Source of the DNA: Halorubrum sp. BOL3-1
Lineage (GTDB): Archaea; Halobacteriota; Halobacteria; Halobacteriales; Haloferacaceae
Direction of reading: 5' to 3'
Length of the DNA stretch: 64,000 nucleotides
Assembly: GCF_004114375.1 (NCBI RefSeq)
Contig: NZ_CP034692.1
Location: forward strand, 682,001 to 746,000
A program made the position numbers and the translations under genes. Of this stretch, positions 12,760 through 48,490 are shown piece by piece (the first letter of the stretch is position 1; the number at the start of each line of letters is the position of its first letter). The notes beneath the pieces are model-generated. The model searched no databases. It saw only the letters and a program-made list of their open reading frames with translations, and was not told the DNA's origin.

Positions 12760-13576
12760 CTTTCGACGTTCCGGAGGCGAGACCTACGCGGTGTCGGACG
12801 GGAGTTATTCTCTTAGACCGGCCTCGTATGCCGATGAGGTCGGTCGGCGGGGGCGGGGAGGCCGGGTTTATCTTGGCAGTCGTTGACCTTCTGGTCCTAA
12901 CAGAGCTACTCGTCCCGCATCTCGCGATAGTGTTCGGGTACCGCGCATTGCGCATCGGCGCCGCGAGCGGTGAGTCCGCCGTGATGAACCTATCCTGTGA
13001 GTACCGTCGGCTACGTTCTCGGCGTGTTACTGGCGCGTATCGCGGCGCTCGTCGCGCTTATTGGCGTTCCCTTCGCGCTGTCGGGCTGTAGTCTGGACGA
13101 CTGCGGCGCCGGACACGGGGATCTTCGCGACGCACAGCGGAGTTGACTCGCCGCTTCTATTCATGAGGGTCCTCAGGTTCGCCTCCTTTTTGCGACCGCG
13201 TACCTGTCGTTGTCGGCAGTAGTATTGGCGCTGGCGTTGAGCTGACGGAGTGCGATCGCGCTCGGTCTCCTCGCATTGTTCGTCGGTGTCCTCGGCAGGG
13301 ACCTCGCGATCCTCCGGTCGCTGGCGGGCGGTATGACTTCGCTAAATCGCCGGATCGATCGCGCTGACGCCGAACTAGGCGTTTCGCGGGCTGATATTCG
13401 AACATGGTATTTGCGTCGCTTTCACACCTGATGGTCAGTTTATCCGAACCGGCTGCGCGGTCGGATCGCTCGTCGGCCGGATGGCCTCAGAAGCCGTGAT
13501 CGCGATTGTGACCCTCCGGTACGGCTCTCGGATCGATGTCACCGTTGAGCGGGTTTATAAGCGGATCACCGGTTGA
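12760..13576 (+). pseudogene. ruined nosY-type ABC permease (copy 1)
   Basis: This stretch aligns by eye with the nosY gene at 48916-49780. GGCAGTCGTTGACCTTCT and CGCGATAGTGTTCGGGTACC correspond to almost the same bases there, and the C-terminal coding TPDGQFIRTGCAVGSLVG aligns with the other copy. It has several frameshifts and stops and no usable start. The end corresponds to the TGA at 13574-13576. At the frameshift of the other copy this one keeps two extra bases, so it preserves the ancestral frame there. Confidence 0.8.
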
Positions 13577-33788: not shown

Positions 33789-35074
33789 TCAGTCCGCGAG
33801 GCCGACCTCCTCGGCGCTGTCGTCGGTCGTCTCAGTCGGCTTCTCGGTACCCTCGCCGGGTTCGGCGTCGTCTTCGACGTCCCACGTCGGGAACCGGTCG
33901 TCGAAGGCGGTCCAATCGGCGTCCATCTCCTCGTCGGTCAACAGAGTCGCGTCGAGGTCGGCGCGGAGCGCGTCGTGGTCCATATCCGTCCCGATAAGCA
34001 CGAGTTGGGTCCCCCTGTCGCCCCACTCGTCGTCCCATATCTCTTCGAGTTCCGGATCGGCCTCGAAGTGGGTCTCGCGCTCTTCTTCCGGCAGCGTCGC
34101 GACCCAGTCGCCGGCCGACCCGACTCGGATCGACTGTCCCGCGACGTTCAGCCCGAGCGCCGTCCTCTCGCGGCCTGCCACCCAGAAGTGGCCCTTCGAG
34201 CGGACGACGTTCGCGGGGAACGAGTCGAGCAGAGCGGCGAACCGCTCGGGGTGGAACGGACGGCGCGACGTGTAGACGAACGAGGTGACGCCGTGTTCCT
34301 CCTCGGCGGACTCGTGTGGCTGCTGGAGTTCCCGTAACCACCCCGCGGACTGACTCGCTTCCTCGAAGTCGAACCGGCCCGTGTCGAGGATCTCGTCTGG
34401 ATCGACCGCGCCGTGTTCCGTCCGGATGACCTCCGCACGCGGCTGGAGCACCTCGATCATCTCCTCGATCTCGTCGAGTGTCGCCTCGTCGACGAGGTCG
34501 CACTTGTTCAACAGGAGGACGTCACAGAACTCGATCTGTTCGACGAGGAGGTTCCCGAGGTCTTTCTCGGTATCACCGTCCATCAGCGATTCCTTCGAAT
34601 CGAACGCCGTCCAGAACTGGTGGGCGTCGACGACGGTGACCGTCGTGTCGAGCTCGTAGTAGTCCATCACCTCGATGCCGGTCTCATCGTAGAACTCCGT
34701 CGGGTCGAGGTCGCCCTGATCGAACCCATCGTGAGGGTCTGTGCGACGGGCAACGGCTCGGCGACGCCCGTCGATTCGATGACGAGGTAGTCGAACTCCC
34801 GGGCCTGAGCGAGTTTCGCGAGCGCGTCCAGCAGGTCGCCGCGCAACTCACAGCAGATACACCCGTTCGACAGTTCGATCAGGTCGTCGTCGTCTTCGGA
34901 GATGTCCGAGTGCTCGGCGACGCGTTCCGCGTCGACGTTCACCTCGCCCATGTCGTTGACGAGGACCGCGATATCGAGGTCCGTTCGCGTGTTCAGAAGG
35001 TTGTTCAACGCGGTCGTCTTTCCCGCACCGAGGTTGCCGCTCAGTACCGTGACGGGGATCGTCTCTCGACTCAT
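33789..35074 (-). pseudogene. CobW-family GTPase 3, one-base frameshift
   Basis: The start (MSRETIPVTVLSGNLGAGKTT by its first 20 residues) with CxCC in GCICCELRGD and ESTGVAEPLPVAQTLTMG is in one frame, down to about 34730. The rest (FDQGDLDPTEFYDETGIEV, DYYELDTTVTVVDAHQFW, LLLNKCDLV, SFVYTSRRPFHPERF, VRSKGHFW) is in another. A missing T in the codon after MG (TT where TTT is expected, near 34727) explains the break. The gene is otherwise complete. It is divergent from the flavoprotein and uS14 operon with 64 bp between starts. The context points to zinc delivery. Confidence 0.82.
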
Positions 35075-36298: not shown

Positions 36299-36484
36299 AT
36301 GACACGAGACACATCAGACGAAGACGGTAGCATCGAGCAATCGACCGAGGCGAATAATGACGATCGACACGTCTGTCGGGTGACCGGCCGCGAACAGGGT
36401 CTCGTCGGGAAGTACGACATCTGGCTCTGTCGGCAGTCGTTCCGCGAGCTGGCCCCCGAAATCGGGTTCGAGAAGTATGACTGA
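36299..36484 (+). CDS. uS14 ribosomal protein paralogue lacking two zinc cysteines
   Basis: A 61-residue small-subunit protein uS14. [19 protein letters not shown] followed by [13 protein letters not shown] is the archaeal uS14 core. The zinc-binding form has CxxC twice; here the pairs read CRVT and CRQS, so each keeps one Cys. The normal gene belongs to the spc ribosomal operon, so this stand-alone copy is a paralogue. In bacteria, cysteine-poor ('C-minus') ribosomal paralogues replace zinc-bound ones during zinc starvation; the neighbours here make the same role likely. Overlaps the next gene by 8 nt. Confidence 0.85.
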
Positions 36485-37034
36485 AAGCCGGGAACGACCG
36501 GCCGACACACCGGCTGCGGAGGATGCCGACAGAGAGACCGTCGTGGTCGTCGGGAAGGAGAGCGTCGGGAAGTCCGAACTCGTCTCCTCGCTCACGGGCG
36601 ACCGGCCGACCAGCGGGAACTTCCGCGGTACCACCACCCGCAGTGAGCGGTACACGACCGATCGGTACGAGTTCGTCGACACGCCCGGGATCGTCCTCGA
36701 TGCCGACACCGAAGGAACGCGGGACGCACTGGCGCAGGTCGACGACGACGAGACGGTGTTGCTCGTCGTCCCGGCGACGGACGTCGACGACGACCTCGAC
36801 GCGCTACTACCGCTGGTCGAATCGCATCTCGGAGCCGTGGTCGTCACCTTCTGGGACAAAGTCGAAGAGCGAACCGAAACTCGCCGGGCACTCGAGGAAC
36901 TGAGCGCCGATATCGGCGTTCCGGTCGTCCCCGTCGACGCTCGCACAGTCGAGCGGCCGATGGTCGACGGCGGGACACCGGAGGCGAGCGCCGGAACGTC
37001 GACCGATGCCTACGGAAAATCATGGATGCCTTAG
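36477..37034 (+). CDS. FeoB-like G-domain protein, separate from its membrane part
   Basis: A 185-residue GTPase-like protein. G1 is [17 protein letters not shown]2 is in [11 protein letters not shown]3 is DTPGI, as in the cytoplasmic domain of FeoB. G4 (normally NKxD) reads TFWDKVEE, so the guanine-specificity motif is degenerate. There is no membrane helix. The gene overlaps the permease gene by 13 nt. Together they look like a FeoB-type transporter split into soluble and membrane chains. Confidence 0.8.
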
Positions 37035-38197
37035 CCCAGCCGGGGATCTTTCCGAACGCTGCGCGCAAGCAGGTCGGTCGGCGGATCGAACCGCCGAAAA
37101 CGGTGTTCGAGTGGCCGGTCGTCGGTCCGCTAGTGAGTCTGTTGCTCCTGTTGGTCCCGGCCGGCGCGGCGGTCTGGTTCGCCAACACGCTCGCCGGCGA
37201 ACTCGATCCGATCGTGGGGGCCGCCTTCGAGCCGCTGGTCGCGGCCGCCGAGCGGCTTCCGGAGCCGCTAGCAGTGCTGTTGACGAACGAGTACGGTCTG
37301 CTGTCGATGGGACCGTTTCTGTTCGTCTGGGCCGGCCCGACGATGCTCCTCTTCGCGGTGATCCTCGGCGTGTACAAGAACACGGGCGTCGTCACCCGCA
37401 TGACCGTCGCACTACATCCGATGATGCGACGGATCGGCCTCTCTGGTCGGGATCTCATCCGCGTCGTGATGGGCTTCGGCTGTAACGTCCCCGCGGTGGT
37501 CAACACCCGCTCGTGTTCGGACTGTACGCGGTGTACGACTATTTCGGCCATCTCGTTCGGCTCGGCCTGTTCGTACCAGTTTCCCGCGACGCTCGCGGTG
37601 TTCGCGGCGGTCGGCATGGGCTGGCTCGTCGGCCCCTACCTGCTCGTGTTGGCGGTCACGACGTTCATCTACGTCGGGCTGATCGCGCCCGCCGAAGCCC
37701 GAGAGTCGACCACCGTGATCGACCGCCGAACGTTCCTCCAGTGGCCCGACCCGAAGGCGGTCGCCCGTGAGGCCTGGAGCGCGCTCAGGGAGTTCTTTAT
37801 GAAGGCACTCCCTGTCTTCGTCGTCATCACCTTCGTCGCCGCCGCGCTCGACCGTCTCGGCGTGATCGACGCGCTGGGATCGGTGCTTGGACCGGCGATG
37901 AGCCTGTTCAACCTCCCGGCAGATGCCGCGATCACGGTCGTGCTGGCGTCGATTCGGAAGGACGGAATCGCCCTGCTGACTGCTGACGGCGCGTCGACGG
38001 CGGCCGCGCTCTCGCCGGTACAGGTGCTCGTGGTCGTCTACCTTGCCGGGGTCTTGTTGCCGTGTCTGGTGACAGCGTTCACCGTTGCCCGCGAAGTCTC
38101 ACCGCGATGGGCACTGACAATGATGCTTCGGCAGGCGGCTGCTGCGATCGGCTTCGCGGCCGTGATCGCGTGGGGAGGTGTAGCCGTCTTCGGCTGA
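37022..38197 (+). CDS. FeoB-like gate-domain permease
   Basis: A 391-residue membrane protein with two Gate (nucleoside-recognition) domains and about eight helices. GFGCNVPAVVNTRSCSDCTR matches the FeoB gate motif GxGCNVP, and the second gate contains ASIRKDGIALL. Extra cysteines (CSDCTRC) follow the gate motif and could select or bind a metal. No N-terminal G domain is fused. FeoB moves Fe(II), but in this zinc-limitation context the cargo may be Zn(II); the sequence does not decide. Confidence 0.82.
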   Translation: MDALAQPGIFPNAARKQVGRRIEPPKTVFEWPVVGPLVSLLLLLVPAGAAVWFANTLAGELDPIVGAAFEPLVAAAERLPEPLAVLLTNEYGLLSMGPFLFVWAGPTMLLFAVILGVYKNTGVVTRMTVALHPMMRRIGLSGRDLIRVVMGFGCNVPAVVNTRSCSDCTRCTTISAISFGSACSYQFPATLAVFAAVGMGWLVGPYLLVLAVTTFIYVGLIAPAEARESTTVIDRRTFLQWPDPKAVAREAWSALREFFMKALPVFVVITFVAAALDRLGVIDALGSVLGPAMSLFNLPADAAITVVLASIRKDGIALLTADGASTAAALSPVQVLVVVYLAGVLLPCLVTAFTVAREVSPRWALTMMLRQAAAAIGFAAVIAWGGVAVFG

Positions 38198-39662: not shown

Positions 39663-39711
39663 TTTGGCCGGCCTAAATCCGGAAGTCTTTACAACTATTA
39701 GGCGAGCCTAA
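39663..39711. promoter_or_regulatory. DtxR-type operators before the siderophore-binding gene
   Basis: TTAGGCGAGCCTAA (39698-39711) is a palindrome of the TTAGG-N4-CCTAA type ending 5 bp before the ATG at 39717. A weaker copy, TTTGGCCGGCCTAAA, lies at 39663-39677. The same arms occur at 42603 and 47461. Location over the start site of a leaderless transcript fits repression by the DtxR-type protein encoded at 47019. Confidence 0.75.
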
Positions 39712-39716
39712 ATCAT

Positions 39717-40876
39717 ATGTCGAGAGACGCCGAGGCACACGAGGCACCGACGCGGCGAGACTACCTGAAGTACGGCGGCGCGGTTATCGGTGGCGGACTG
39801 CTCGCAGGATGTACGGGGAGCAGTGAACCGGAGTCGACGCCGACTGAGACGAGTACGAACGCGGAGTCCCCTACCGAAGAGAACGGTAGCTACACTGTGT
39901 CGATGGAACCCGTCGGCGGTGTCGAATTCGAAAGCGTCCCCGAGACGTGGGTCGCAAACAACGGCAGCCGGGCCGATATGGGAATCGCGCTGGGCCAAGA
40001 ACTACCCGAGGGTGTTTGGCTCACCAGCCGGTATCATACTCAGTACTACGACGAGATTCCGGGCGTCTCCGTCGACAAGAGTGAGATGGCCGACCTATAC
40101 CAGGACGGTGTCAGCAAGGAACTCTTCCACGAGCTCGACGGCGATATCCACGTCATCGATCCGAACTTCCTGATGAACCCGTTCGAAGGCTGGGAGAAGG
40201 AAGCTATCGACGAAATCCGCGAGAACATCTCGCCGTTCTCCGGGAACAGTATCTTTTCGCGAGGCTACCCGTGGCACGAGAACTACCGGTACTACTCCCC
40301 GTACGAGGCGTTCGAAAAGCGAGTCAGGTATTTCAACAGCAGGCCCGCTACGAAGCGTTCGTGTCGGTACACGAGTCGTTCCGGGAGAACCTCGCACCCG
40401 TAGTTCCAGGGCGTAGTGACCGTCCATCGGTGGCCGTCCTCTGGGCGAGTGGTGACCAACCGGAGACGTTCTTACCATACGTTATCGGAGGCGGGTCCGG
40501 TTTCAAGCACCTCCGCGATCTGAAACTCCGGGACGCGCTTGCGCGCTCCGATATCAAAGACTTCCACACCAATCGCGGCGAAATCGACTACGAGACGTTA
40601 CTCGACATCGATCCGGACGTGCTTCTCCTCCGCGGTCAGGAGGCAAAATCGGCCGACGAGTTCGAGCAGACGGTCGTCGAATTCATGCGAAATCACGATG
40701 TCGCAAGCAGTCTCACCGCCGTCGAGGACGGTGCTGTCTACCGCGCGGGTGGCCTGTATCAGGGGCCGATTACGAACCTCGTCCTGACTGAACGACTGGC
40801 GGCGGACGTGTACGACACTGACGAGGAACTCTTCGACCGACAGCAGGTCGCAGACATCGTCAACGGTGATATCTGA
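39717..40876 (+). pseudogene. iron-siderophore-type binding lipoprotein, one-base frameshift
   Basis: Periplasmic-binding-protein family PF01497-like. The Tat lipoprotein signal is TRRDYLKYGGAVIGGGLLAGC. GGVEFESVPETWVANNGSRA and DIHVIDPNFLMNPFEGWEK fill the first lobe. The frame breaks at a run of four A in GCGTTCGAAAAGCGAG near 40317. One more A would give EKASQVFQQQARYEAFVSV, continuing to 40876 (PYVIGGGSGFKHLRDLKL, DIDPDVLLLRGQEAKS). The downstream half is uncorrupted. No permease or ATPase is adjacent. Preceded by two operator-like palindromes. Sequencing error is possible. Confidence 0.82.
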
Positions 40877-40878
40877 TT

Positions 40879-41820
40879 ATGACTGCCGCCGAAACCGGAC
40901 AGGCACTCGAGCACGACCACGATGTCGTCATCGTCGGCGGCGGCCCGGCGGGCTGCTCGGCGGGCGTGTTCTGCGCCCGCGAGGGGCTCGACACGGCCGT
41001 CTTCGACCGCGGGCGCTCCTCGCTCCAGCGGTGTGCCCACCTCGGGAACTGCCTCGGCTTCCCGGCCGGGATCGCTATCGACGATTTCACCGCCCTCATG
41101 TACGCCCACGTCAGCGAGGCGGGCTGTGACATCGTCGAGGAACGGGTTGAATCGGCCACGCAGGCGGACGCCGACGCGCGGTTCGTCGTCGAGACACGGG
41201 CCGGGGAGGTACACGCTGCGAAGTACGTCATCGCCGCAGCGTGGTACGACGGCTCGTACCTTCGCGGACTGAACGACGAGGACACGTTCGAGCAACAGGA
41301 GCATCACGGCGAGGTCGAGGAACGGTTCGATCCGGAGTATCCCGATGGGGACGGTCGAACACCCGTCGACGGGCTGTACGTCGCCTCGCCGGCCGGCGAT
41401 CGAAGTGCACAGGCCATCGTCGTTGCGGGGCACGGCGCGCACGTCGCCCGATGGCTGTCGGAAGACCGTCGAAGTGAGCGCGGGTACTCGGGTGAGGTCG
41501 CACCCCATTACGATTGGCTCAGATCCGACGCGGAGTTCGCGGGAGAATGGGCGGAGCGCGAGCGCTGGCGCACGTGGTTCGACGACGAGATGGGAGCCGA
41601 CCTCTCCGAGGATCGAGTGGCAGACCTGCGGGAGGCGTACATCGATCGGGCGTTCGACACGCGTCGGACTGACCAGGAGGTCGAGGCGGCGACAGAGCGC
41701 GGTCTCCGGCGATTGGTCGAGGTCATCGGCCAGGATCGGCTACTCGATGTTATCGACGACGATGAGATTCGGTCGCGTGTGAGCGAACTCGAAGACACGG
41801 ATACCGCTCATGAAAGCTGA
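40879..41820 (+). CDS. thioredoxin-reductase-like flavoprotein A (no CxxC)
   Basis: A 313-residue FAD protein. The FAD motif is VVIVGGGPAGCSAGVFCAREG, and RCAHLGNCLGFPAGIAIDDF is the following TrxR-like loop. GLYVASPAGDRSAQAIVVAG is the C-terminal FAD motif. The redox CxxC of thioredoxin reductase is absent. The C-terminal 100 residues are a helical extension. It follows the siderophore-binding gene by 2 bp and overlaps flavoprotein B by 11 nt. A ferric-chelate reductase role is plausible by context. Confidence 0.75.
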   Translation: MTAAETGQALEHDHDVVIVGGGPAGCSAGVFCAREGLDTAVFDRGRSSLQRCAHLGNCLGFPAGIAIDDFTALMYAHVSEAGCDIVEERVESATQADADARFVVETRAGEVHAAKYVIAAAWYDGSYLRGLNDEDTFEQQEHHGEVEERFDPEYPDGDGRTPVDGLYVASPAGDRSAQAIVVAGHGAHVARWLSEDRRSERGYSGEVAPHYDWLRSDAEFAGEWAERERWRTWFDDEMGADLSEDRVADLREAYIDRAFDTRRTDQEVEAATERGLRRLVEVIGQDRLLDVIDDDEIRSRVSELEDTDTAHES

Positions 41821-42544
41821 ACGCCATGATACGACGATAATCGGCGGCGGCGTCGCTGGGCTCTCAGCGGCGACTTTTACCGCCCGTCACGGCCTCGACA
41901 CGCTCGTTGTCGATTCGGGCGACTCGATCCTCCGGCGCAACGCGCACCTGGAGAACTTCCCCGGGTTCCCGGCCGGCGTCAACGCCCGCCGGCTGCTCGA
42001 CCTGCTCGGCGAACAGGCCGAGGCGGCGGGCGCGACACGTCACGAGGCGACAGTTACGGAAGTCACGCGAACCGACGAGGGGTTCGTCGTCGAGACCGAC
42101 GAGGACGACCGCTACCGCACCGAGTACGTCGTCGCGGCGACGAAGAACGAGGTCGGCTACCTCGGCGATATTGACGGTGTCGGGGTCATCGAACGCGGGA
42201 AGGCCTTCGTCGACGTCGACGAGCGGGGCCGTACGGGCGTGGAGGGGCTGTACGCGGCCGGTCGACTCGCCGAGAAGCCCCACCAGGCGATCGTCTGTGC
42301 CGGCCACGGCGCTGAGGTCGGCGCGACCCTTCTCGAAGACGACGACCGGCCGTTCTACCACGACTGGGTCGCGCCCGAGGGCTACTTCACCGACCGCGGG
42401 CGTGACCTCCCGCCGGGCTGTGAGGAGATCGACGACGAGGAGCGAGAGCGCCGGGAAGACGCGTCGCTGGAAGCCGTGCGAGACCGCTTCGCGGAACCGC
42501 ATCCGGACGAGCAGGAGACGCACCCGAGCCTTCGACGCGACTGA
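41810..42544 (+). CDS. thioredoxin-reductase-like flavoprotein B (no CxxC)
   Basis: A 244-residue FAD protein related to the preceding one: TTIIGGGVAGLSAATFTARHG, RRNAHLENFPGFPAGVNAR, GLYAAGRLAEKPHQAIVCAG. It lacks the NADPH-binding insert of full thioredoxin reductases and the CxxC. Two unequal paralogues in tandem may form a heterodimer. Downstream is the halocyanin-fusion operon with its own operator. Confidence 0.75.
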   Translation: MKAERHDTTIIGGGVAGLSAATFTARHGLDTLVVDSGDSILRRNAHLENFPGFPAGVNARRLLDLLGEQAEAAGATRHEATVTEVTRTDEGFVVETDEDDRYRTEYVVAATKNEVGYLGDIDGVGVIERGKAFVDVDERGRTGVEGLYAAGRLAEKPHQAIVCAGHGAEVGATLLEDDDRPFYHDWVAPEGYFTDRGRDLPPGCEEIDDEERERREDASLEAVRDRFAEPHPDEQETHPSLRRD

Positions 42545-42602: not shown

Positions 42603-42624
42603 ATTTTTAGGGCGACCTAAAAAT
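42603..42624. promoter_or_regulatory. DtxR-type operator touching the halocyanin-fusion start codon
   Basis: The 22-base palindrome has arms ATTTTTAGG and CCTAAAAAT around a GCGA centre, and the ATG follows immediately at 42625. It overlaps the TATA-like stretch, so binding would block initiation. It is the most symmetric of the three sites. Confidence 0.8.
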
Positions 42625-45092
42625 ATGCGACCGACCAGACGACAGCTGATCGCGGCCGGCAGTTCGGCATTCGCAGCCGGTCTCGCAGGATGTAACGAGT
42701 CCGGAGAGAACAGTCTCGGTGACTCGGCGGGGACGCCCAAGTCGGAATCCACCGCCGATGGGACGACGGCGTCAGTCGAGACGGCCGTCGCCGCCGAGTG
42801 GAACGCGATGCGTGCGCGGGTACGGGACGCACTTTCGCTCGGCGTCGCCGGCGACGCAGGTGGCGGTGCCGCCGTCGCGCAGGCGACGTTCGCTCGCTTC
42901 GAGGGGCCCCCGGAGAACACGGCGCTCACGAGATGCTCGAGGAGACTGACGAGTCGAACTACGAGGAGTTCGAGGAGGCGCTCGGCGAGCTCCGGACCGA
43001 AGGCCTCCGAGCGGAGGACATCTCTCGGGCGCGCGAGGAGGCGACGATCGCCAGCGCCCAACTCGCCGAAGCCCAGCGGACGCTCGTCGGGGACGAAACG
43101 GCTCGACTCCTCGACCTCCAGCTGCTCGGGGCGTCGGTACAGGACGCGGCCTTCCTCGCGGCGGCCGGAAGCTTCGAGGCGGCACGGACAACGGCCGAGT
43201 CGGTGTCGAGTCGCCTCGAAGACGCGGCAGTTCACGACGCCCTCGAAGCGGTGGAGGGCGACGCGTACGAGGCGTTCGAAGAGGCCGTCGCGTCCGTCGC
43301 CTCCGCCGCCGAGAACGAGGACGCCGACGCCGTTCGGACGGCCGCCGGCGACGCCTATCAGGCCGCCATCGACGGCAGTTACACGCTCGCCGACGCCGAA
43401 CACGCGGCGGGCGTCGGACACGTCGCGACGCTACAGGCTCGTGGGTGGGACGCCGCCGCCCTCGCGTCGATGGGCGGTCCCTCGACCTCGTTCGCCCACG
43501 CCGCCGCGCTGACCGTGTATCGCGCTCGCGCCTACGACGCCCAGTGGCTCGCTGCGCGCGGGGAGACCGACCGGGCGGCGACGACGGTGAGCGATGTCTT
43601 CGCCCACTTCGAGGAGGCGCGTGCCCACGAGGCGGTGGAGGAGGCGGACCGCGACGCGTACGAGGCCTTCGAAGGCGGACTCGCCGACCTCCAGTCGGCG
43701 ATCGAGAACGGGGACTCCGACGGGATCGACGGCGCGGTCGCGACCGTGGATGTGAACTTGGTGAGCGGTATCGAAGCGCTCGCCGGGACGGACGCCCCGC
43801 TTCTGGAGGCGGCGTTCTTCCGGGCGCGCTTTGCCGACGCTCGCGAGCTCTACCGACTCGGACAGAACAACGTCGCGGCCTCGATCGCCGAGGGGCTGTT
43901 CCAGCGGTTCGAGGAGAACGAGCTCGACGTTCACGAGACGGTCGAGTCGACGAGCGAGGAGCTGTACACACGGTTCGAGGACGAGCATCTCACCGCTCTC
44001 ATCGACGCGTTCGAGAACGCGAACGACTCCGGCGTCGCGACGCATTACGACGGCGCCCAGTCGACGCTGTTCGAGTTCGAGACGGCGGCCGGGACGGTGG
44101 CGACCGTGAGCGGCGCCGAGGGCGCGTACATGGCTATGCGCGGGTTCGACGCGGCCGTACTCGACGCGCTCGGAAAGAATGGCCGCGCACGGAATACCTC
44201 CCAGGACGCTTTCGAGCACTTCGAGTCGGGCGCCGGCGGCTACCACGAGGCGCTCGAAGAGGCGGACGAGGAAGTCTACGAGGCCTTTGCGGAGCGGCTC
44301 GGGGGGATCGCCACGGCGGCGAACGACGACGAGGACGTGTATCCGGCGGCGAAGGCGCTGAACGACGAAGCGCTCGCGTCGATTTACGCCATTATCGAGA
44401 CCAGCGGGGGTTCACAGTCACAGGCGGCGGCGACCTCCATGCGGGGGGTGTTCGCTCATTTCGAGGAAGCGCGCGTCCACGAACTCCTCGAAGAGGCCGA
44501 CCACAACGCGTACGAAACCTTCGAGGCACAGCTGGACGCGTACATCACCGCTCTCGAAGAAGGCGGGGACATCACGGCAGCCGCGACCGCGTTCGCCGAC
44601 GCGTCACAGTACGTACAGTTCTCGCTCGCCGACAGCGTCGAGGAGCTCCCGTTAGATCTCGATCTGGCGGGGGCGGCCGGCGGCTCTTCCGGCGGTACGG
44701 AAGAGAGCAGCGGAGCCGCCGAACTCAGTGGAGGTCCCAACGTCGTTGAGGGGGTTCCCGACGACGCCGACCACGTGATCGACATGAACGCCGTCGCGTT
44801 CGAGCCGGAGCGGCTCACGGTTTCGCCAGGAGACACCGTCGCGTGGGCACACAACGCGGGTGAGCCACACAACGTGGTCGCCCACGCGGACGAGATTCCG
44901 GAGACCGCCGACTACTGGGCGTCCGGGGGGTTCGAATCGGAAGAAGCCGCACGAACCGGCTGGGAGAACGGGGAGGGGGCCGTCCAGTCCGGACAGTCGT
45001 ATGTGCGCACCTTCGAAACGGCCGGGACACACGAGTACTTCTGCGTCCCGCACGAGGCTGCCGGCATGGTGGGGTCAGTCACTGTAGAATGA
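42625..45092 (+). pseudogene. DUF5059-like repeat lipoprotein fused to halocyanin, one-base frameshift
   Basis: The lipoprotein signal TRRQLIAAGSSAFAAGLAGC starts in one frame. A missing G near 42903 (GGGG where GGGGG is expected) shifts to the frame that runs to 45092. The body has six copies of a roughly 100-residue unit with motif H-F-E-x-A-x2-H-E-x-L-E-E-A-D-x3-Y-E-x-F-E. The C-terminus is a type-1 copper domain: VSPGDTVAWAHNAGEPHNVV supplies the first His, and FCVPHEAAGM supplies Cys, His and Met. The layout matches haloarchaeal DUF5059-halocyanin proteins. It is likely membrane-anchored outside the cell. Confidence 0.82.
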
Positions 45093-45114: not shown

Positions 45115-46062
45115 ATGATTGGAACCACGCTCGCCGAAATCCGCGGCCACATCGAGTCGCTGGCCAGCGACGACGGCGAGTACTACCTCGTCTGTGCGCG
45201 ATACGGCGACCGGCCCGTTCCCGCCTCGAACCTCCGGTTCGACACGCGGGCCACAGCGAGGGCGGCCGCACAGGCGACCACCCAGTACCGGCAGGCGTTG
45301 CGTCGGTACGACCCACAGGTTCCGTACTACGACATCGTCGCGTGTCAGGCAGTCAGCGTTCGGACTCGATGCGTGCGCATCGAGCGACTGCGCTGTGACT
45401 CACAGTCCACGTACCCGGAAGCACTCGCTGAGCCGGTCGTGAATCGCTCGCCGTCGGTCGCCCGCGAACTCGTCGAGTTCTGTCACCGCGTCGCCGCCGC
45501 GGTCTTCGAGACGCTCTCTGAGCACGGGTACGACGCCGTCGAGTCCGCGATCATGGACGCGTACTTCGCGCACGCCGAAGAGCTCTCCGACCCCGACAGA
45601 CTCTGTATCCGGCTTCTGGAGAGCATGGCGGTCGAACTCGCCGACGGCCTCGATCCGTCCGAACAGGTCGCCTTCCTCTCGGCGGCGGCGGAACGACTGG
45701 AACACGGGCCGGGAGATGCGACGGGCTCCCCGACGCGGTCCTTAGGAGAACAGTCCGTCGACGAATCGCTCTCCGCGCTCCGGAACGCCGGACTCTATCG
45801 ACGGAGTACCCGAGTCATTGACGCCGAGGCGGGCGAACGGTCCGCGGAACTCGTCGTTGAGGTCTCTGGGTACGCGCTCCGACCGTCCGACGGCCGGTTA
45901 CCGCTGCTTCCGATCGCCCTCACCGTCCACCGGTGTGACGACGCATGGATCCCGACCCGGGTAGATGCGTCCGAGGATAGCGTCCAGATCGCTTTTCGGC
46001 CTATCGAGGACTCGGAGACGCTCGATCACTCCGGCCGGGTCTTCGCTCCGGAGGTGTGTTGA
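45115..46062 (+). CDS. haloarchaeal hypothetical protein (DUF7551-like) in the iron operon
   Basis: A 315-residue cytoplasmic protein 22 bp after the halocyanin-fusion gene. The N-terminus SDDGEYYLVCARYGDRPVP and DTRATARAAAQATTQYRQA, then YDPQVPYYDIVACQ, recalls a family I know only as DUF7551/7552. The middle is helical (FCHRVAAAVFETLSEHGYD) and the last 100 residues are beta-rich. No catalytic motif is seen. Its end overlaps the next coding frame. Confidence 0.65.
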   Translation: MIGTTLAEIRGHIESLASDDGEYYLVCARYGDRPVPASNLRFDTRATARAAAQATTQYRQALRRYDPQVPYYDIVACQAVSVRTRCVRIERLRCDSQSTYPEALAEPVVNRSPSVARELVEFCHRVAAAVFETLSEHGYDAVESAIMDAYFAHAEELSDPDRLCIRLLESMAVELADGLDPSEQVAFLSAAAERLEHGPGDATGSPTRSLGEQSVDESLSALRNAGLYRRSTRVIDAEAGERSAELVVEVSGYALRPSDGRLPLLPIALTVHRCDDAWIPTRVDASEDSVQIAFRPIEDSETLDHSGRVFAPEVC

Positions 46063-46864
46063 AACGCCGATCGAGACGCACATCGACAGCGCGCTGACGT
46101 GCGTCAAGCGGGAGCAAACCCACTTCGACGCAGAGCGTCGAGCCTACGAGCGCTTCCGATCAGGAGTCGCGTCGCTGTCGCCACAGTCGCCAGCGGCGCC
46201 CTCGACGAGCCTGTCGGCCGATGGAGCAACCCTCTCTGTCGCAGGCGGATCACGGCCAGACGCGGCGACCACCGACGCCGATTGCGTCCGTAAGCTGTTC
46301 ACCGAGACTGTCCGTCCCCACAGTGTTGCCGATCTCAACACCGAGGAACCGTTGCTCGAAACGATTCGAGAAGAGCTCGGTGATTCTCTCGCGTTCGTCC
46401 TCGCACCCGAAACGGATGCCGACGTAACCCCACAGGTTCAGCGTGCGATCTGTTCGAAGATCCAACAGCGACTGCGAGAAATCACTGCGATGAGTAGCGC
46501 GCTCGATAGGGAGGCTGAGTCGCTCCAAGCGGCTGCCCGCGACTGCCGAAGCGTTACCGGGTGGGTGGAGGATCACAACCAGACCTCGCTTCTTCAATTC
46601 GGATTCTCCGAACTCCAGCGATGCCATGAGCAGCTGTCGGCCCGCCGTGAACGGTGTGATGATCGTCTCCGTGTTCGACAGGAGACCATTCAGGCAACGA
46701 CGAGCAGGGGAGGCAAGACCGGACTCGAACAACGCTCACTCGTAACGTTTCTCTATCAGGAGTTTCCAGTTTCGTACTCCGTCCTGTCAGCGGTAACCCG
46801 TCTCGACGCGCTGTTGGCAGACTGTCAGCGATCTGTTCGCGATCATCTGACCCAGAGGGTATGA
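45965..46864 (+). CDS. DUF7260-like helical protein, start uncertain
   Basis: The credible protein begins near 46055 with VETPIETHIDSALTCVKREQ, then helical EQTHFDAERRAYERFRSGV, a Ser/Ala linker, and REITAMSSALDREAESLQAA. The only in-frame ATG before it, 45965, adds about 30 residues that look like an out-of-frame reading of the previous gene, and no ATG or GTG lies nearer. The start may be non-canonical or a lesion may have removed it. Overlaps the next small gene by 4 nt (ATGA). Confidence 0.6.
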   Translation: MRPRIASRSLFGLSRTRRRSITPAGSSLRRCVETPIETHIDSALTCVKREQTHFDAERRAYERFRSGVASLSPQSPAAPSTSLSADGATLSVAGGSRPDAATTDADCVRKLFTETVRPHSVADLNTEEPLLETIREELGDSLAFVLAPETDADVTPQVQRAICSKIQQRLREITAMSSALDREAESLQAAARDCRSVTGWVEDHNQTSLLQFGFSELQRCHEQLSARRERCDDRLRVRQETIQATTSRGGKTGLEQRSLVTFLYQEFPVSYSVLSAVTRLDALLADCQRSVRDHLTQRV

Positions 46865-47022
46865 CTATGGGTAAAAAATCTCATTCCCAACGTGTTCGGG
46901 TCTGGGCGTGGCTGTACGTCCAACTGTTTGGAACCCCCGAAGATGACGGCGACACTTCCGAAGAGGCTCGCGAAGCGGGACAACGGACGACGGAAGAGAC
47001 CACCGATGGGAAATCCAAATGA
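46861..47022 (+). CDS. 53-residue small protein between DUF7260-like and DtxR genes
   Basis: MTMGKKSHSQRVRVWAWLYV then QLFGTPEDDGDTSEEA and an acidic tail. The start overlaps the previous stop (ATGA at 46861-46864) and its own stop overlaps the DtxR start (47019), so it is translated as part of the operon. Function unknown. The Trp-rich VRVWAWLYVQLFG could be amphipathic. Confidence 0.6.
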   Translation: MTMGKKSHSQRVRVWAWLYVQLFGTPEDDGDTSEEAREAGQRTTEETTDGKSK

Positions 47023-47429
47023 CCGCAGAATCAGAGTACCTCCTCGCCTTGTTCATCGCTGAACAGCAGTCGTCTCCACCGATATCGTCGGGGCAGCTCG
47101 CGACGGCACTCGACCGCTCACAGGCCGCGACGACGGAGATGATCCAGCGGCTTGAGACGGAGGGGCTCGTCGAGTACGAACCGTACGAGAGAGCGAAATT
47201 GACGACCTCGGGCTGTGAGCAGGCGGAGGCGTTACACGAGACCTATGTGACGCTCTCGTGGTTTTTCCGCTCGGTTCTCGACCTCGATACGCACGAACGC
47301 GAGGCGATGCGAATGGCCGGACTGGTCAGTCCGACAGTTGCCGAGCGACTCGCAGAGACGCTCGTTCCGACCGGTGAAAGCTCGAACGAGAGCATGACGC
47401 GTTCACACAATGAGACCAGTGACCCGTAG
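47019..47429 (+). CDS. DtxR/SirR-type metal-dependent repressor
   Basis: A 136-residue regulator. The N-terminal winged helix is YLLALFIAEQQSSPPISSGQ, then ATALDRSQAATTEMIQRLE and the wing LVEYEPYERAKLT. The dimerisation/metal region follows (EQAEALHETYVTLSWFFR, LDTHEREAMRMAGLVSPTV), with His and Glu residues in the DtxR/MntR pattern. There is no C-terminal SH3 domain. Last gene of an operon that begins with its predicted operator at 42603, giving an autoregulatory loop. Fe(II) is the likely effector. Confidence 0.85.
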   Translation: MTAESEYLLALFIAEQQSSPPISSGQLATALDRSQAATTEMIQRLETEGLVEYEPYERAKLTTSGCEQAEALHETYVTLSWFFRSVLDLDTHEREAMRMAGLVSPTVAERLAETLVPTGESSNESMTRSHNETSDP

Positions 47430-47460
47430 GTCACGAGCGCGTCCGAATCCGAACTGTTTT

Positions 47461-47479
47461 ATTTTAGGTTTACCTAAAT
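47461..47479. promoter_or_regulatory. DtxR-type operator before the amphi-Trp operon
   Basis: TTTAGGTTTACCTAAA (within 47461-47479) is a palindrome of the TTAGG-N4-CCTAA type, 6 bp before the ATG at 47486 and overlapping a TATA-like TTTTATTTTA. It is the third strong copy of the site in this region. Confidence 0.75.
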
Positions 47480-47485
47480 GTGTGT

Positions 47486-47653
47486 ATGTCAACGGGTAGG
47501 AAGTCGGAAGCGGGGCGAGCCGTCGAGTCGGCCTCCGAGGATCAGCCGGAGCTTGCCGTCTGTGAGAGCCGTCCCGGCAAGGCGGTGTTCATCGAATCAG
47601 AGAACAGCGACGGCTGGATCGCGATCGACGAGCCCGTTGAGGTGACCACATAA
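47486..47653 (+). CDS. 55-residue haloarchaeal small protein (DUF7331-like)
   Basis: MSTGRKSEAGRAVESASEDQ leads to a compact beta segment, CESRPGKAVFIESENSDGW then IAIDEPVEVTT. It resembles a small haloarchaeal family I recall as DUF7331. The stop touches the next start (TAAATG). Under the iron-type operator at 47461. Confidence 0.6.
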   Translation: MSTGRKSEAGRAVESASEDQPELAVCESRPGKAVFIESENSDGWIAIDEPVEVTT

Positions 47654-47938
47654 ATGACCGACGCCGACGACGAGCGATCGACGATTCGGTCGGGACGGAA
47701 TTTCGAGGAGACGTATCGACTGGACGCGAGCGAGGCGGGCGAGTTCCTGATCGCGCTCGGCGAACAGCTCCGCGACGACGACGAACTGACGATCGCCGGC
47801 GACGACTGGGAGCTACCCTTCGCGTTCGGGGAGCCAGTCGAACTGGAAGTGGAATACGAGGGCGTCGACGAGCCGGAACTCGAAATCGAGCTCGAACTCC
47901 CGGGGCGGACCGACGAAAGCGGCCCCGAAATCAAATAG
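47654..47938 (+). CDS. amphi-Trp domain protein
   Basis: A 94-residue acidic protein. YRLDASEAGEFLIALGEQL is the helix and LTIAGDDWELPFAFGEPVEL with EVEYEGVDEPELEIELEL the amphipathic strands with the conserved Trp of the amphi-Trp (TIGR04354-like) domain. Function is unknown; members are often near iron or oxidative-stress genes. It runs convergently into dpsA, its stop ending 2 bp before that of dpsA. Confidence 0.8.
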   Translation: MTDADDERSTIRSGRNFEETYRLDASEAGEFLIALGEQLRDDDELTIAGDDWELPFAFGEPVELEVEYEGVDEPELEIELELPGRTDESGPEIK

Positions 47939-47939
47939 T

Positions 47940-48490
47940 CTACTGAGTCGCCGATTCGAGCACGAGCGTGTCGTCTTCGAGGTAGTGCTCGATGTGGTGA
48001 GCGTGTTCTTCGAGCGTTTCGAGCTGTTCACGAAGTATTTTTTTTCGGTCGCGTAGTCCCCGAGGTTCCCGGCCAGTTCGACGTGTTCGCGGTAGCTCTC
48101 GATGATGTCGCCCATCACTTCGAGGTCGTTCGACAGCGACGTCCTGATGTCGTAGACGTTCTCGTCTTCGACCTCGACGGTCGCGCGTTCCGCGAGCGTG
48201 GTCATGTTCCCATGCGGGACGCCGCCGAGCGCCTGGAGCCGCTCCGCGAGCCCGTCGGCCGCGTCTTCGACGTCCTCGTAGACCTCTTGTAGGAACACGT
48301 GGATCTCGAGGAACTCTGCGCCTTCGACGTTCCAGTGGTGTTTGTGGACCTGGTGGTAGAGGGAGTACGCGTTCGCGAGGTCCGCGTTCAACGCCTCAAC
48401 GATCTGTTCGGCTTTGCCCGTGTCGAGTCGGAGCGCGTTCTCTTCGACGGTGCCCGGCTCCTGTCGGATGGTCTTCCGTGTATTCATCAC
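47940..48490 (-). pseudogene. dpsA: DpsA ferritin-like protein, frameshift at poly-A
   Basis: DNA-protection/ferritin-like protein that oxidises and stores iron. LYHQVHKHHWNVEGAEFLEI holds the ferroxidase ligands, and VFLQEVYEDVEDAADGLAER the second helix; SLSNDLEVMGDIIESYREHV follows. The frame breaks in a run of eight A (T on the plus strand, about 48037-48044) after DYATEK. In another frame the C-terminus continues LREQLETLEEHAHHIEHYLE and DDTLVLESATQ to a TAG at 47940-47942. Two fewer, or one more, A would restore it. Sequencing error is likely because the rest is pristine. Confidence 0.82.

Follow-up and report, generated by a model that had tools for sequence, protein, structure and literature searches.

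What might a large haloarchaeal lipoprotein do if it joins six repeats rich in His, Glu and Tyr to a blue-copper domain and is encoded behind an iron-type operator? The question is raised by a gene in the window, by which we mean the whole 64,000-nucleotide stretch of Halorubrum sp. BOL3-1 DNA analysed here (Table 1). To our knowledge, extracellular iron handling in haloarchaea is poorly understood. The reading that we favour, with a probability of roughly one half, is that of a redox protein that binds iron outside the cytoplasm, is induced by iron starvation and works like EfeO but belongs to a separate family.

A frame-broken member of the DUF5059 family

The gene matched the Pfam profile DUF5059 (PF16502; gathering score, 25 bits) with 726.8 bits over profile positions 41–619 in frame 3 and with 46.4 bits over positions 1–41 in frame 1. 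Judged by these matches, the window protein belongs to a known family to which Pfam attaches no function. Full-length profile matches link it to the DUF5059 proteins HVO_1228 (HcpE) of Haloferax volcanii and HcpG of H. mediterranei. In its relatives, signal, six repeats and cupredoxin follow one another as in the window protein, and the operator has the same position; the relatives in alignment A2 are 48–73% identical to the window copy, which differs from them by a one-base frameshift in repeat 1. PF16502 scored above its cut-off in 98 of 391 Halobacteria genomes; of 14 named control genomes, Haloferax volcanii was the only one with such a match. The 72 DUF5059 loci from the GTDB contigs were haloarchaeal by record title. 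A viral origin was dropped, as the viral contigs of IMG/VR yielded zero DUF5059 relatives and a viral fold search gave no match at E ≤ 0.001.

The lipoprotein start, operator, six repeats and copper domain were each recovered where the sequence-only reading had placed them, so that its account of the parts of the gene stood; its single reading frame did not. At GGGGCCCCC, frame 1, with the signal and the beginning of repeat 1, gives way to frame 3, which carries the remainder, and the full-length protein is therefore not one open reading frame in the BOL3-1 assembly. Two nearby genes are broken as well: the binding-protein gene at 39717 near an A run at 40315, and the gene for Dps at an eight-T run (48038) close to the end of its ferritin match. 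Because three breaks within about 9 kb lie at homopolymers, the one-base deficit at GGGGCCCCC is probably a sequencing indel; alternatively, the gene may be a recent pseudogene. Programmed frameshifting was rejected as a likely cause, since intact relatives are in a single frame at this spot and two neighbours are also homopolymer-broken. A CobW-like gene (33789–35074) is possibly frameshifted too, and the clustering of breaks points to indel errors in the assembly. Broken DUF5059 genes were also seen in two other genomes.

Table 1 Features of the DUF5059 gene and its surroundings, numbered from the first letter of the window
Feature	Positions	Strand	Basis or remark
Tat lipoprotein with Peripla_BP_2 (ferric siderophore/B12-type) binding protein, frameshifted	39717..40876	+	Pfam
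Two thioredoxin-reductase-like FAD proteins (40879–41820 and 41810–42544)	40879..42544	+	Pfam, NCBIfam
Second operator copy, before binding-protein/flavoprotein genes	39698..39711		
Operator TTAGGGCGACCTAA, TTAGG-N4-CCTAA palindrome, exact	42607..42620		ends 4 nt before ATG
DUF5059 family gene (Halorubrum sp. BOL3-1)	42625..45092	+	Tat lipoprotein signal, six helical repeats, blue-copper domain
Tat lipoprotein signal MRPTRRQLIAAGSSAFAAGLAGC, RR motif, lipobox Cys23	42625..42693	+	sequence; layout common to relatives
Frame-1 gene piece: signal, linker, DUF5059 start (profile positions 1–41)	42625..42906	+	E 3.4e-12
Frame-3 gene piece: DUF5059 (profile 41–619), Copper-bind	42897..45092	+	E 3.4e-218; E 1.7e-20
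GGGGCCCCC run, site of frame change	42903..42911		1 base short of open frame
Repeat 1, spans frameshift	42784..43088	+	motif, hhalign, conservation
Repeat 2, degenerate in family	43092..43388	+	motif, hhalign, model, conservation
Repeat 3	43485..43796	+	motif, hhalign, model, conservation
Repeat 4, extra invariant His (FExEH)	43797..44090	+	motif, hhalign, model, conservation
Repeat 5	44097..44402	+	motif, hhalign, model, conservation
Repeat 6	44418..44633	+	motif, hhalign, model, conservation
Low-confidence linker, probably flexible	44634..44729	+	model, residues 582–608 pLDDT < 50
Blue-copper (type-1) cupredoxin, ligands H658, C716, H719, M724	44730..45089	+	Pfam, alignment, fold match
Short DtxR/MntR-type regulator (Fe_dep_repress)	47019..47429	+	Pfam, NCBIfam
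Third operator copy	47464..47477		
Dps-type ferritin-like protein	47813..48490	-	family match

The operator and its genomic setting

The window contains three exact copies of TTAGG-N4-CCTAA, which we take to be the FerR motif, within 8 kb, compared with a chance expectation of 0.18 with one mismatch allowed; the 3.67-Mb genome holds only eight exact copies and 0 of a reversed control pattern. By its promoter, the DUF5059 gene would fall into the haloarchaeal FerR/DtxR-type iron regulon and would be derepressed in low iron, and the A/T-rich stretch adjoining TTAGGGCGACCTAA could be a TATA box. Sailer et al. cite Leyn and Rodionov 2015, in which the FerR regulon is described, for ferR signals before fhu genes. 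Outside the window, the palindrome precedes a set of Fe(III)-type ABC genes (binding protein first, then permease and ATPase), a glycosyltransferase gene adjoining one for a GMC oxidoreductase, and RGP-like, LPG-synthase-TM and DUF7260 genes, the last of these beside a second Dps gene. That one of the eight genomic sites stands before the Fe(III)-type ABC genes and one before the Peripla_BP_2 gene counts in favour of iron uptake. The RGP-like, LPG-synthase-TM and DUF7260 genes (operators at 13466, 14694 and 15833 of L032 and at 4076 of L033) are not obviously iron-related.

Across relatives, the operator was present, exactly or with one mismatch, in 101 of the 109 ORFs listed (some genomes appear twice), usually 17–22 nt upstream. 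Of the other eight, three are fragments without a start, and five encode small halocyanins (145–156 aa) that lie near some of the family genes, are themselves outside the family and serve as a negative control. Every start-intact family gene among those fetched is thus preceded by the palindrome, and this pattern likewise favours iron uptake. An exact copy was found within 70 nt at 59 of the 72 loci of the GTDB set. About 20 relatives carry a second operator, mostly 36–37 nt further upstream, an arrangement that suggests paired binding of the regulator.

Published data from H. volcanii add to this pattern. Passages in two papers, which annotate HVO_1228 as DUF5059 or halocyanin without discussion, report it among the ten most up-regulated genes upon endA knock-down, together with siderophore synthesis and iron-ABC genes (PMC7714728), and as down-regulated along with siderophore/iron-ABC-type genes in a cas1 fen1 mutant (PMC9051519). 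This grouping supports a role in iron uptake and, with the palindrome before the relatives, gives good support to the earlier proposal of iron-operator control. Weighing against that role, both sets come from mutants, not iron shifts, and the main text on the iron-starvation proteome of H. volcanii (PMC11349517) makes no mention of HVO_1228.

The local genes are in keeping with iron uptake, as they include the binding protein, the DtxR-type regulator, Dps and an FeoB-like membrane protein. FeoB itself is seemingly split, with a G-protein gene (36477–37034) recognised by eye and a membrane gene (37022–38197) that matches FeoB of NCBIfam. The two FAD-protein genes apparently share a transcription unit with the binding-protein gene at 39717. 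Since this binding protein and both flavoproteins adjoin the DUF5059 gene under the same type of operator, the repeats could be imagined as a receptor that holds haem or a ferric siderophore through His and Tyr, both common haem ligands, while the copper domain reduces the iron for release. We regard such a receptor as improbable. Siderophore synthesis (IucA/IucC) is absent from the window's genome, and its tie to the family is weak, IucA/IucC occurring in 37 of the 98 DUF5059 genomes (odds ratio 1.8, p 0.02, relatedness uncorrected); this co-occurrence was discarded as a functional clue for the same reason.

The neighbourhood is mostly not kept in relatives, which also speaks against the iron-uptake reading, and conservation of neighbours was set aside as a clue to partners. 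In a few relatives, as an exception, DUF7551, DUF7260, a DtxR-type gene and Dps lie downstream of DUF5059. The order over 45115–48490 (DUF7551, DUF7260, short DtxR-type, Dps) is kept at 80–93% identity at locus L042 of Halorubrum and in part at three further loci. One Halorubrum genome (G206) has two DUF5059 genes, of which L042 has the window's downstream neighbours and L041 is closer in sequence.

Helical repeats and the copper domain

The pattern H-x3-E-x6-Y-x2-F occurs six times in the frame-3 product (residues 11, 113, 244, 346, 450 and 528), compared with a maximum of two in 5000 shuffles of the sequence. Its spacings of 102, 131, 102, 104 and 78 residues agree, as an average, with the interval of about 100 residues given before. 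When the six segments were turned into profiles from the 49-sequence alignment A2, all 15 pairs aligned as homologues (hhalign probability, 97.3–99.6%), with the pooled consensus AR..DA..L...G....AA..A...F..FE.A...HEALEEAD...YE.FE..L.....A...GD. In repeats 1, 3, 4, 5 and 6, residues E38, H44, E48, Y55 and E59 (consensus numbering) are conserved at 98–100%; in repeat 2, which is degenerate family-wide, the His is kept in 53% of sequences. Short relatives of about 500 residues contain approximately three repeats, one to three of which fit the strict pattern. Near several of these short forms lies a distinct gene for a small halocyanin, which is without the operator.

AlphaFold modelled the frame-3 protein of the window with a mean pLDDT of 90.5. 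For the Halorubrum amylolyticum relative, the helical domain was modelled alone, because plastocyanins had dominated the first PDB fold search, and reached 93.9. Each modelled repeat opens with a helix that ends in FE; a short one with HExLE, one with YExFE and one or two more follow. Foldseek returned nothing significant for the helical part in the PDB (E ≤ 0.001), and sequence comparison of this domain with solved structures gave matches at chance level only.

The near-invariant Glu/His/Glu/Tyr/Glu set fits repeats that act as metal sites, and its retention in five repeats argues for iron uptake. The same sites could in principle serve copper, with repeats and cupredoxin binding the metal at the surface, either as a supply or as protection, and the operator reflecting crosstalk between metals. 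Neither Cys nor Met, the usual copper-storage ligands, is found among the strongly conserved repeat positions, and the operator is common to iron-type transport genes. Copper handling is hence an unlikely role, even if copper can be bound by His/Glu sites and is, with iron and zinc, among the metals that EfeM prefers in vitro (PMC9174327).

The C-terminal domain had been described as a halocyanin-like copper site. Its copper-site assignment is supported by the four type-1 ligands, all invariant in 49 sequences, which again favours the iron-uptake reading; the domain scored 45.3 bits with the halocyanin model TIGR03102 (curated cut-off, 93.8) and 78.8 bits with plastocyanin, the best NCBIfam match (cut-off, 87.85), both below threshold. 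PF00127 gave 73.7 bits, and Foldseek led to plastocyanins in the PDB. The protein thus has the type-1 copper fold and ligands in common with halocyanins and plastocyanins and differs from them in being a large repeat protein with the cupredoxin at its C-terminus.

An intact type-1 site behind an iron-type operator is also what an iron-sparing electron carrier would show, and this is the chief rival, which fits most of the same facts. A blue-copper protein would replace iron-containing carriers in respiration under iron limitation; the repeats would be a spacer or docking scaffold that brings the cupredoxin to its partners, and their conserved polar residues would hold the bundles together. Halocyanins are mobile electron carriers in haloarchaea (PMC6267482), and respiratory-chain proteins of H. 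volcanii are reported to drop in iron starvation (PMC11349517). Such a carrier leaves unexplained why Glu/His/Glu/Tyr/Glu is retained in nearly every repeat and why the array spans 600 residues when other halocyanins are small, and we consider it rather unlikely.

Proposed role and comparison with EfeO, P19 and Fet3p

Under the favoured reading of an iron-binding redox protein, a DtxR-family repressor would leave TTAGGN4CCTAA when iron is scarce, and the gene would be expressed. The product, to judge from its signal, would be exported by the Tat route and lipid-anchored on the outer face of the membrane. There, the helical array of about 600 residues could offer several Glu-His-Glu-Tyr-Glu sites, provided that these residues cluster and that the metal bound is iron. 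The tethered cupredoxin, presumably loaded with copper, might alter the oxidation state of the iron or shuttle electrons to or from it, and the iron might then be handed to a transporter.

The analysis contributes an operator that is near-universal in the family, a dissection of the repeats, helical models of high confidence and the elimination of obvious bacterial relatives. With roughly one in four of the Halobacteria searched having the family, DUF5059 becomes a concrete candidate for extracellular iron handling. If the repeats bind iron and the copper site is redox-coupled to them, the family would be an archaeal counterpart of the copper-assisted iron uptake of bacteria and yeast; otherwise, it would offer a good example of an iron-saving copper carrier.

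The closest precedent is EfeO of the bacterial EfeUOB system, which unites a cupredoxin and helical bundles bearing a His/Glu/Tyr site for iron uptake. As is predicted for the window protein, EfeO/EfeM proteins (M75, imelysin-like) are extracytoplasmic and iron-regulated and combine a cupredoxin with His/Glu/Tyr helices, a precedent that supports the iron-uptake reading; the cupredoxin is N-terminal in EfeO and C-terminal in the window protein, which, unlike EfeO, has six tandem modules. Kinship of the repeats with FTR1 or M75, suggested by a look at the motifs, was rejected: FTR1 and M75 are absent among the 25 Pfam families listed for 49 DUF5059 members, and hhalign against E. coli EfeO gave a probability of 0.15%. 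In the PDB search with the helical model, which had no match at E ≤ 0.001, E. coli EfeO (7wgu_A) ranked 47 at E 3.3. Neither PF09375 (M75) nor PF03239 (the FTR1/EfeU permease) was found in 145 Halobacteria, the window's genome included, and the lack of the permease counts against the iron-uptake reading. The window protein would therefore best be read as working like EfeO outside the M75 family, with EfeO as its nearest working model.

P19 and Fet3p have a copper site adjoining an acidic iron site (PMC9174327); in this comparison from the literature, the proposed copper–iron coupling is alike, and the folds and partners differ. We tentatively raise the possibility, which we hold to be doubtful, that archaea invented DUF5059 for copper-assisted iron capture, with three to six iron sites, a flexible linker and a blue-copper gate, set in a class in which the FTR1 permease was not found. 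The family would then converge with EfeO, P19 and Fet3p, unrelated to them by descent.
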